Below, in pieces: positions 22,227-25,816 of a stretch of DNA of 25,816 bases. Positions within the stretch are counted from its first letter, which is position 1. Every line of letters begins with the position of its first letter. Position numbers and translations under genes: made by a program. The notes beneath the pieces were generated by a model, which saw nothing but the letters and a program-made list of their open reading frames with translations, searched no databases and had not been told where the DNA came from. This DNA is from a virus. The stretch covers positions 1 through 25,816 of IMG/VR virus record IMGVR_UViG_3300007734_000521; one strand, given 5' to 3'.

Positions 22227-22832
22227 ATGTCTCTTGGCTGGGGCGACAGTACATGGGGCGCAAACGGCTGGGGCGGCACTCTTGAAGCAACGGGGGATGT
22301 AGCAACAGGGGCCGTAGGGACGGTCACGCCCAGCCGGACTGTTGCGCTGAGTGGGGTGTTGTCTTCTGGGAATGTTGGGAATGTTGTTGAGACAAACAAC
22401 CCAACGGAAGACGGCAATATTGCTTACGGGGATGTTGGCAGCGCAGCACCTGTTCTCACAATCGCTCTGACCGGCGTAGTGGCATCGGGTGCAGTTGGCA
22501 CAGTAACCCACGGCGGCACGGTAGTTGAAATAACAGGCAATGCGGCAGCGGGGTATGTGGGTACAGTTGGGTTGACAAAATCCTTTGCTTTGTCAGGAAA
22601 TCAGGCTTCAGGAACAGTAGGGTCTGTGATTGCAGTTTATTGGGCAATCATAGACGACAGTCAGACGGCAAACTGGGCGACAATATCTACCATACAAACG
22701 GCAAGTTGGTCAAATGTAGATGACAGCCAGACCGCAAACTGGCAAAATATCAGCAATCCGCAAACTCCCGGCTGGTCGCAGATTGATGACACGCAAACCC
22801 CGAATTGGGAAGAAATTGAGGTAACAACATGA
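22227..22832 (+). CDS. repeat-containing virion protein (201 aa)
   Basis: AAAGGGTAGCTC ribosome-binding site. Opens with MSLGWGDSTWGANGWGG. Residues about 20-135 hold five or so copies of a unit ending ASGAVGTVT or similar (VATGAVGTVTPS, VASGAVGTVTHGG, AAGYVGTVGL, QASGTVGSVI). Residues 138-198 carry about five W..I...QT..W units (WATISTIQTASW, WSQIDDTQTPNW). Both look like beta repeat structures with tryptophan pins, as in bacterial adhesins and phage fibres. Placed directly before the fibre gene, it may be a fibre-associated or tail-needle protein. Confidence 0.65.
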   Translation: MSLGWGDSTWGANGWGGTLEATGDVATGAVGTVTPSRTVALSGVLSSGNVGNVVETNNPTEDGNIAYGDVGSAAPVLTIALTGVVASGAVGTVTHGGTVVEITGNAAAGYVGTVGLTKSFALSGNQASGTVGSVIAVYWAIIDDSQTANWATISTIQTASWSNVDDSQTANWQNISNPQTPGWSQIDDTQTPNWEEIEVTT

Positions 22833-25012
22833 CGACAGCATATACATCACTTTTAGGCTTGGCACTCCCCGTTACAGGTGAACTAAGTGGTACGTGGGGT
22901 GATACCGTAAATAACAGTATTACCTCGCTGCTTGATTCAGCCATTGCGGGTACTACCACCTTAAGCACTGACGCAGATGTCACGCTGACAACCACCACAG
23001 GGGCGGCAAATACTTCACGGGAAGCCATCCTCCTGTGTTCAGGTGCAAGGACAGGCATCAAGACCATCACGGCTCCTGCTCAGTCCAAGATTTACACCAT
23101 CATCAATTCCACCACGGGCGGGTATGCGGTCAAGATCGTTGGCGTTGGCCCGACAACTGGCCTAACCATACCAAACGGCTCAAGTGCTGTCGTTGCATGG
23201 AACGGCTCTGACTTCATTGAAATTGGCTCATCTACTGTTGGTAACTTCACTGTCAATGGAAACCTGACCGTCACTGGAACATCTACGCTGACCGGCGCAG
23301 TCACCGTACAAGGACTCACCGTAGGCAAGGGTAACAGTGCTGTTGCTACCAACACTGCTTTTGGTGTAAGTGCTTTGGCGGCAATTACAACTGGGGCATT
23401 AAGTACCGCTGTTGGGTATCAAGCAGGACTTACAAATACAACTCAAGACGGTCTTACCGCCATTGGCTACCAAGCTGGTAGATTAAACACTGGAGGCATC
23501 AACACTTTTGTTGGCTACCTATCGGGTACTACAAATGCTGGCGGGGGCGGCCTTGTTGCGGTTGGTGACCGTGCATTAACTGCAAATACCTCTGGTAACT
23601 TTAGTACTTCTGTGGGTGGAATTTCATTACAAAATAACACTTCAGGGTCAAGTAATTCTGCTTTTGGTTATGGCGCACTTAACGCCAACACCACTGGCGG
23701 CAACAACACAGCCATAGGTTATCAAGCCTTTTACACCAATTCAACATCATCTTCCAATACCGCAGTAGGTTATCAAGCGGCTTATTCAACCACGTCAGGT
23801 GCTACGGTAGATGCTTTTGGCTATCAATCGGCATACACCAATTCCAGTGGTAATAATATTGTTGCTATTGGCACTTTTGCTCTTACCAAAAACACAAGCG
23901 GAGGTCAAAACACTGCTGTTGGTAGAGATGCTCTTTATAACAACACATCAGCTTCAAACAATAATGCTGTGGGTTATCAAGCTCTTTACAACAATACAAC
24001 AGGTTCTCCCAATACTGGGGTGGGACATCAGGTTCTTTTTTCTAATTTAACAGGCATAAACAACACTGCTATTGGGCATCAAGCTCTTTACTACAATACC
24101 GTTTCAAGCAATACCGCAATAGGTCATTCTGCTCTTCTTAATCATACTACTGGTGGTGATAACACTGGTGTTGGTTCACAAGTTTTGCAAGCCACCACAA
24201 CTGGCACAACCAATACAGCAATGGGGGTTACAGCACTTGTTTCCAATACAACTGGCTCAAACAATACAGGCATAGGAAAAGACGCACTTAAAGCCAATGT
24301 TAGTGGCGTTCAAAATACCTCCCTTGGTGCTGGCTCTCTTTACACAACAAGCGTAACCCATAACAACACGGCAATTGGATATAACGCTTTAAATTCGTAC
24401 AATCGCACTGTAGATGTAGATGGATTTAGTACGGCATTAGGTTCTTCTGCTGGGTCAAACTTAACAACAGGACAATATGTTGTTTTGCTTGGCTATAACG
24501 CACAAGCATCATCAGTATCTGCGTCAAATCAAATTGTTATTGGCGCAAATAACGTAGGTCAAGCAGATAACACTGTTTCAATAGGTTACGGTGGCACTAA
24601 TTACATTTATGCGACCCCAACATCATCTGCCACATGGACAAAGGCTTCAGACGAGCGCATAAAGAAAAATATCCAAGATTTAGATATTGGTTTGGACTTT
24701 ATCAATGAACTGAAGATTAAATCCTATAACTGGAAGCCATCAAACGAAATTCCAGAATCCATTATTGGTTACAGCGAAATCAACACGCAAGACACCACTA
24801 TAACCATGTACGGTATGTTGGCTCAGGATGTAAAGGCCGCTATGGACAAGCATGGCTACGAACATTTTGGTGGCTGGAACGTGCGTGAGGCTGATGGCTT
24901 GCAAGGCTTGTCCAACGAGATGTTTGTCTTGCCGCTGATTAACGCAGTCAAAGAATTATCGGCACAGGTTGAAACAATGAAGGCAGAAATTGCTTTACTC
25001 AAAGGAGCATAA
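22829..25012 (+). CDS. tail fibre/spike with YadA-like repeats and S74 chaperone domain (727 aa)
   Basis: The N-terminal 50 residues (LLGLALPVTGELSGTWGDTV) are a conserved attachment start in phages of this type. From about residue 175 to 560 comes a long array of 14-20 residue repeats such as NTAIGYQALYNNTTGS, like the left-handed helix of YadA-type trimeric adhesins. The C-terminus (about 600-727) is an S74 intramolecular chaperone: KASDERIKKNI with S607/D608 as the self-cleavage pair, then YGMLAQDVKAAM and a terminal coiled coil. The chaperone trimerises the fibre and is then cut off. It should bind the host surface. ATGA overlap with the preceding gene. Confidence 0.9.
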   Translation: MTTAYTSLLGLALPVTGELSGTWGDTVNNSITSLLDSAIAGTTTLSTDADVTLTTTTGAANTSREAILLCSGARTGIKTITAPAQSKIYTIINSTTGGYAVKIVGVGPTTGLTIPNGSSAVVAWNGSDFIEIGSSTVGNFTVNGNLTVTGTSTLTGAVTVQGLTVGKGNSAVATNTAFGVSALAAITTGALSTAVGYQAGLTNTTQDGLTAIGYQAGRLNTGGINTFVGYLSGTTNAGGGGLVAVGDRALTANTSGNFSTSVGGISLQNNTSGSSNSAFGYGALNANTTGGNNTAIGYQAFYTNSTSSSNTAVGYQAAYSTTSGATVDAFGYQSAYTNSSGNNIVAIGTFALTKNTSGGQNTAVGRDALYNNTSASNNNAVGYQALYNNTTGSPNTGVGHQVLFSNLTGINNTAIGHQALYYNTVSSNTAIGHSALLNHTTGGDNTGVGSQVLQATTTGTTNTAMGVTALVSNTTGSNNTGIGKDALKANVSGVQNTSLGAGSLYTTSVTHNNTAIGYNALNSYNRTVDVDGFSTALGSSAGSNLTTGQYVVLLGYNAQASSVSASNQIVIGANNVGQADNTVSIGYGGTNYIYATPTSSATWTKASDERIKKNIQDLDIGLDFINELKIKSYNWKPSNEIPESIIGYSEINTQDTTITMYGMLAQDVKAAMDKHGYEHFGGWNVREADGLQGLSNEMFVLPLINAVKELSAQVETMKAEIALLKGA

Positions 25013-25232: not shown

Positions 25233-25256
25233 CACCGCTGCCCCACTTCAGCGGTG
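25233..25256 (+). terminator. hairpin after the 69-aa gene
   Basis: CACCGCTG (25233-25240) and CAGCGGTG (25249-25256) pair around an eight-base loop. It is followed only by CTTTGG, so terminator strength is uncertain. It lies close to the next gene's ribosome-binding site. Confidence 0.55.
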
Positions 25257-25271
25257 CTTTGGAGAAATCAA

Positions 25272-25457
25272 ATGACAGAAAACGTCAACATCAAACTGGA
25301 ATTGCCCGTGCAAGCTGTAAACATGATGCTTGCTGCTTTGGCAAAGGCCCCCTATGAGCAAGTCGCTGACTTGATTCAGGCCATTCGTGAGCAGGCCATC
25401 CCCCAGATTCCTATGCCTGAAGTCACAGCGCCACAAGCTGAAGAAACTGCGGAGTAA
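25272..25457 (+). CDS. small conserved phage protein (61 aa)
   Basis: ATG 25272 follows GGAG at good spacing; the frame is open further upstream to a GTG at 25254, but that lacks a ribosome-binding site and overlaps the hairpin. Product MTENVNIKLELPVQAVNMML, then a helix (LAALAKAPYEQVADLIQAIR) and a polar P/E-rich tail. The NV.IKL...V...L.ALAK.P...V..LI..I pattern is a frequent small phage protein of unknown role in my recollection. It precedes the last, interrupted gene. Confidence 0.7.
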   Translation: MTENVNIKLELPVQAVNMMLAALAKAPYEQVADLIQAIREQAIPQIPMPEVTAPQAEETAE

Positions 25458-25459
25458 TC

Positions 25460-25816
25460 ATTGATCCCGTCAGTCTTCTTTTCGCCGCCAATGCCTGTGT
25501 CGCTGCTATCAAGCAGGGATGCAAGCTGTACAAGGACGCTAAAACGTCTTTTATGGAGGTCAAGAAGACTGTCGATGAAATTGTTTCAGATGCAAAGCAG
25601 TTCGGAGTTTTTGGCAAAAGTTGTTTGGAGCAGACTCCGAGCCAGCCAAGCCTGTGGCGAAAAAGGTGGAGAAGTTCGTTGCCATTGACGAAACCCAAGT
25701 CATGGCGGACATTGTCAGCCAGCTTACCAAGCTGTTCAGGCTTGAAGAGCAGTTAGCAACGCTCATCCGGGAGGAAGAAGAAAAGTCCAGCAACGTTTAT
25801 GACCCAGATGCGAAAT
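25460..25816 (+). CDS. phage protein, apparent ATT start and internal -1 frameshift, cut by window edge
   Basis: Reads from ATT (25460) with GGAG five bases upstream: IDPVSLLFAANACVAAIKQG, continuing to QFGVFGK. At 25616-25620 the frame is lost. In the -1 frame from 25621 the text continues LFGADSEPAKPVAKKVEKF and later LTKLFRLEEQLATLIREEEE to the window edge. Adding one A to the AAAA run (25616-25619) would give GKKLFG and restore one frame. The N-terminus resembles the DP.SLL.AANA..AIK.G start of a common small phage protein family. Original gene, a sequencing error or programmed shifting are all possible. Start and frame are both unusual. Confidence 0.6.

Follow-up and report, generated by a model that had tools for sequence, protein, structure and literature searches.

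The last gene of the window

The DNA analyzed here (the window) corresponds to one complete virus record, 25,816 bases in length. Its last gene, on the plus strand, reaches the right edge of the record and carries a frame loss close to that edge. Comparison with relatives places it in a phage family coding for a helical protein of about 220 to 240 residues, encoded upstream of a holin/endolysin cassette in those relatives. A putative non-canonical start codon, ATT (25460 to 25462), is preceded at a distance of 5 bases by a Shine-Dalgarno-like GGAG (25451 to 25454). Next to it on the 5′ side lies a small gene on the same strand (25254 to 25457), whose start is GTG at 25254 or ATG at 25272. It shows approximately 67 to 69% nucleotide identity to the related loci L027 and L009, and family searches with the 25272 version gave no match. 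Farther upstream, positions 22829 to 25012 code for a tail fiber or spike whose C-terminal part is an S74 chaperone domain (Peptidase_S74, E = 1e-13). In the related locus L010, a 93-codon frame that contains a hydrophobic stretch overlaps the main gene on its 3′ side, and genes for a holin (phrog_3427, E = 1.4e-14) and for an endolysin (phrog_465, E = 1.4e-14; Pfam Peptidase_M15_4) come after it.

The main protein was modeled with AlphaFold2 as helical, with a long C-terminal helix ending hydrophobic (mean pLDDT, 74), and family searches returned no function for it. Relatives with 39 to 67% identity were found in BFVD (A0A6J5N4E1, A0A6J7WAV8, and A0A6J5SJA7, all from uncultured Caudovirales phages). 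These three proteins are uncharacterized, and two of them are shorter, with 162 (a fragment) and 191 residues. A pattern scan of bacterial genomes for relatives matched 45 stretches, none of which was confirmed. The gene family was not met in a literature search that covered titles and abstract openings, with most subscription journals outside its scope. Within the lysis region, the main protein might act as a coiled-coil protein with low output and a membrane anchor.

One base is missing after codon 47

The two halves of the broken gene were searched separately, which confirmed 509 and 180 relatives, and the best 80 of each were kept. In the pooled set of loci, in which many contigs are present twice as they were fetched via both halves, tblastn identified 160 entries with both halves. 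Two of those were the window itself (L001 and WIN), with a one-base offset, and both halves were found in a single frame in all 158 other loci. The comparison with homologues proposed by the sequence-only reading thus revealed an uninterrupted gene. Two separate genes were also considered and rejected, since the relatives carry one continuous gene of about 220 to 240 codons. To reduce the redundancy, 197 distinct sequences, the window among them, were examined as well. In this set, 164 sequences read through to a stop after at least 200 codons, 31 leave their locus before a stop, one (L029) is interrupted by an in-frame stop, and the window copy stops after 98 codons.

The frame that begins at 25460 reads IDPVSLLFAANACVAAIKQGCKLYKDAKTSFMEVKKTVDEIVSDAKQ and then stays open, and the later residues that match relatives are one base out of register. 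Its first 47 codons (25460 to 25600) are in register with the relatives, and frame-matched homology stops at codon 47 (CAG, 25598 to 25600). Six relatives (L009, L010, L027, L054, L003, and L005) have one extra base directly after that codon in the alignment, locating the loss at 25598 to 25601, and a second alignment with other settings and 44 relatives gave the same gap position. The remainder of the main frame (RSFWQKLFGADSEPAKPVAKK...; 25603 to 25815) is shifted by one base and runs as far as the edge of the contig. Read from the ATT, the frame of the window consists of 47 main-frame codons and then of the +1 frame of the family, which passes through a segment encoding SLWRKR and ends at a TAG, for a total of 98 codons (25460 to 25756). 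Compared with its family, the window copy lacks a single base after codon 47, and we hold this account of the frame loss with high confidence.

Earlier inspection had described one frame from 25460, followed by the −1 frame. The frames themselves were correct, as the later matching codons do lie in −1, but the switch had been placed at GGC AAA (25613 to 25618), beyond the point where homology ends. The stretch from 25601 to 25618 looked like a continuation because nearly every relative is free of stops in the alternative frame; the unusual openness, across the family, of the frame entered after the loss is what misled that reading as to the site.

The break itself is an ordinary single-base loss, a GG/G difference located about 16 bases upstream of the T and A runs (25608 to 25619) that had been suspected. 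Taken alone, it matters for annotation only. The break lies 216 bases from the contig end and reflects either an error of sequencing or assembly in that region or a private loss-of-function mutation; we slightly favor an error. Error or decay had been proposed before, and this stands for the kind of event but not for the A homopolymer as its place. A pattern search of viral_contigs, from which near-identical records may be left out, found 0 matches to the short allele in other contigs. The comparison for further breaks covered approximately 16 to 25.8 kb of the window, for which the fetched loci include relatives (they are almost absent for the first 16 kb). This is the only frame break that it revealed, and we regard it as more than a chance finding. 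A further break signal at around 21720 came from one low-scoring match on the opposite strand. General decay of the window copy was rejected, since private changes are not enriched at its conserved positions. There was no sign of a chimeric join at the break either: the two sides share top-ranking relatives, L054/L082 (the closest fetched relative across the gene, with about 92% identity) and L010/L084 being high on both.

Slippage on TTT to yield a fusion had also been raised, and the T and A runs near the apparent switch might suggest programmed −1 slippage on TTT/AAA in this phage. Such slippage is very improbable, since close relatives whose T and A runs are identical show no change of frame. 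The frame change is not conserved (158 of 158 other loci in one frame), and in the phase GTT TTT GGC AAA AGT neither run forms an X XXY YYZ heptamer, leaving the window sequence with no in-phase slippery heptamer at the switch. Programmed frameshifting is not supported as an explanation of the break. Least probable of all, and rejected by the alignments, is a homopolymer error that removed one A from the A run: adding one A there restores the downstream frame arithmetically, but the TTTTT (25608 to 25612) and AAAA (25616 to 25619) runs are of equal length in close relatives such as L003, L009, and L054, and the homopolymer argument does not apply because the lost base lies upstream, in the GG/G difference after codon 47.

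The main frame appears to start at ATT or GTG

The codon before Asp-Pro at the beginning of the main frame is ATT in 160 of the 197 distinct sequences, window included, and GTG in the other 37; it is never ATG, TTG, ATC, or ATA. The subset obtained with a pattern that left the start codon free comprised 64 ATT and 26 GTG. A C-terminal pattern scan provided 44 further loci, 26 of them usable and 18 cut by contig ends or with a diverged start. The usable ones have ATT in 23 cases and GTG in 3, all 3 GTG preceded by AT.

Between the upstream in-frame stop and the ATT, canonical starts are absent in 159 of the 160 ATT members, and in 68 of the 160 the stop immediately precedes the ATT. Shine-Dalgarno-like 4-mers are present 5 to 7 bases before it in 122 of the 160. 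Codons 2 to 31 of the main frame evolve as coding sequence. Because ATC is used freely at the other Ile positions of the frame, the ATT is not an ordinary Ile codon. A conserved ATT as the sole possible start, as would characterize an AUU start, is therefore what this family has, and translation of the main frame appears from these comparisons to start at ATT or GTG. Gene callers limited to ATG, GTG, and TTG would misplace the start of the family, as in two distant relatives from GenBank. Those are annotated from 24 bases (L282:3998-4025) and 21 bases (L283:4001-4022) after the first aligned residue. The start also lies at a recombination boundary, the upstream genes being often unrelated, with 116 distinct upstream 16-mers among the 160 ATT members.

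ATT and GTG were interchanged about 17 to 20 times on the family trees. The two bases before the GTG are AT in 34 of the 37 members, GT in 2, and AC in 1, and therefore an ATG or GTG in the +1 frame overlaps the GTG start in 36 of the 37. ATT followed by GAY always contains TTG (25461 to 25463 in the window), a possible start of an overlapping +1 frame; for that reason, the TTG does not represent separate evidence for a start there. The ATT is likewise retained by members whose +1 frame closes early, and in L283, a distant relative, ATGTGG comes with a +1 frame of only 7 codons.

The +1 frame is open beyond chance

In 153 of 169 full-length members, the +1 frame stays free of stops for 64 codons or more. 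Its length is most often 103 codons, and across the family it avoids stops to about codon 97. For comparison, 0.42% of 963 other open reading frames on the same loci are open for at least 98 codons in +1. Random recoding of the family proteins with the codon usage of their own loci gave a mean of 30 codons in +1 versus 93 observed, and 0.9% of single recoded sequences reached 98 codons. As related sequences are not independent in such length statistics, a site-level comparison was made as well. It considered the Leu, Val, and Ile codons before A that make a stop in +1. Their mean usage was 0.01 for NTA and 0.00 for NTG in codons 2 to 64 (5 sites) and 0.01 and 0.03 in codons 65 to 97 (3 sites), to be compared with 0.32 and 0.39 in codons 105 to 223 (15 sites). 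The second frame is open beyond chance, as would be expected of an overlapping gene.

Part of this stop avoidance may represent regional codon bias, GTG for Val being rather rare in codons 1 to 97 even where no +1 stop results. The +1 codons 2 to 64 show no constraint at the residue level, and the third positions of the main frame vary there as freely as elsewhere. The +1 frame closes before codon 64 in 16 of the 169 members, in 7 of them at codon 40.

An 18-mer shared by both frames is nearly frozen

Codons 65 to 70 of the main frame (AAG CCT GTG GCG AAA AAG) show almost no synonymous variation. In the window, they correspond to AAGCCTGTGGCGAAAAAG (25648 to 25665), which codes for KPVAKK in the main frame and for SLWRKR in the overlapping frame. 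Pairwise synonymous difference over these six codons was 0.049 among 60 members drawn at random from the 153 with an open +1 frame. In the other regions of open members, it ranged from 0.39 to 0.56, except in codons 71 to 85 (0.296). It amounted to 0.42 at codons 65 to 70 of the members whose +1 frame closes before codon 35, a group of 9 that represents few lineages, the 7 members closing at codon 40 being in neither group. The freeze is absent where the +1 frame closes by codon 31, L279 excepted. The AlphaFold2 model of the main protein has low confidence at residues 55 to 77, a linker that includes the residues encoded by the 18-mer, and hence the main protein offers no obvious reason for the freeze.

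Among the 153 open members, 148 have the motif LW[RQK][KR] in +1. In the 16 closed members, the motif is never found before the stop and is found beyond it in 8. Of the 26 further loci, 22 are open for at least 64 codons in +1, 20 of these with the motif, and the 4 closed ones do not have it ahead of their stop.

Substitution patterns within the 18-mer were then compared between frames. Open members display 7 distinct single-base variants. Five change the main protein and are silent in +1, 1 does the reverse, and 1 changes both, the corresponding numbers of possible variants being 18, 11, and 24 of 54. Another 13 variant types differ by at least 2 bases, and most of those alter +1 residues. 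By parsimony on two trees, first positions of the 18-mer change at the usual rate and third positions two- to five-fold less than elsewhere. The counts of events in codons 65 to 70 were balanced, with 39 main-silent, +1-changing versus 43 main-changing, +1-silent events on one tree and 37 versus 35 on the other, both taking all 169 members, closed and poorly aligned ones included. This balance weakens the claim of residue-level selection in +1. Altogether, residue-level constraint on the +1 frame is suggested at codons 65 to 70 and, more weakly, to about codon 85.

The 18-mer was also considered as a repeated DNA site. This was rejected, as there is one copy in the window and one per locus listed; the 16-mer used in this search had no exact counterpart in 89 of the 281 loci. 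In one relative (L029:3001-3660), the main frame has a stop at codon 69, inside the 18-mer, which is silent in +1. The +1 frame of L029 itself has stops at codons 16 and 40.

A candidate overlapping gene

The family is of more interest than the break. We estimate at about 0.55 the probability that it has an overlapping gene in the +1 frame of the main gene, as suggested by the stop avoidance and by the frozen segment. This gene would comprise some 70 to 120 codons, including a selected SLWRKR segment, and would be invisible to gene callers. Its start would probably be a TTG or ATG overlapping the ATT or GTG of the main frame. The window frame would then stay open past the break since the +1 frame of the family is itself kept open. 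Searches with the +1 product gave no family match, and its predicted structure shows no confident fold (pLDDT, 60).

Another explanation, which we regard as clearly less probable although a serious rival, is that codon bias and a signal in the RNA or DNA together produce the open +1 frame and the frozen 18-mer, with no second protein. The unconserved N-terminal part of the +1 product, the rarity of GTG mentioned above, the 8 closed members that keep SLWRKR beyond their stop, and parsimony counts that are not one-sided are all in line with it. It accounts poorly for an 18-mer whose third positions are held while its first positions change as usual, for single-base variants that are mostly silent in +1, and for the loss of the freeze in members that close +1 by codon 31, except L279. 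In addition, no conserved RNA structure was found around the 18-mer: a double change was seen in 1 of the 15 pairs, and the covariation term was −0.3.

It is unlikely that the 18-mer is a site of frameshifting at which CGA AAA AGR slips back by one and connects the +1 frame to the main frame. Such a site might be suspected from the A-rich run, from the avoidance of stops upstream, and from the several members that stop in +1 shortly past the 18-mer. However, the constraint reaches upstream across SLW, and the +1 frame is kept in some members in which the A run is interrupted (GCG AAG AAA and GCG CAA AAA).

Returning to the overlapping gene, the comparisons make its association with an overlapping double start probable. 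The fullest form of this reading is more tentative, and we hold it at somewhat less than even odds. It proposes a widespread family in which a double start (ATTG, or ATGTG/GTGTG) serves two frames: the long one would begin at a weak ATT or GTG, and the second one, with its selected SLWRKR segment, at TTG, ATG, or GTG. In the window copy, the two products would then be fused naturally. Should the double start be real, the absence of ATG at the beginning of the long frame would be explained by the requirement that the second frame have a start as well. Such a double start would also represent a compact tie between the outputs of two overlapping genes in the phage lysis region.

Overlapping (overprinted) phage genes are well known, for instance Rz/Rz1. 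As in that pair, the second frame would be nested in a gene of the lysis region. Unlike it, the second frame described here seems to start where the host gene starts, and no family was found for it. With respect to initiation, the non-canonical starts of infC (ATT, Escherichia coli) and sigR (GTC, Streptomyces) let IF3 repress translation (PMC5472188). The phage family would share with them a conserved start outside ATG, GTG, and TTG, expected to be weak and IF3 sensitive (PMC5472188). It differs from infC and sigR in alternating between exactly ATT and GTG, with the number of changes given above. Toward the other end of the main gene, an additional frame overlaps its 3′ end in L010 (3564 to 3845), and synonymous variation is also low near codons 183 to 185 and 202 to 207.
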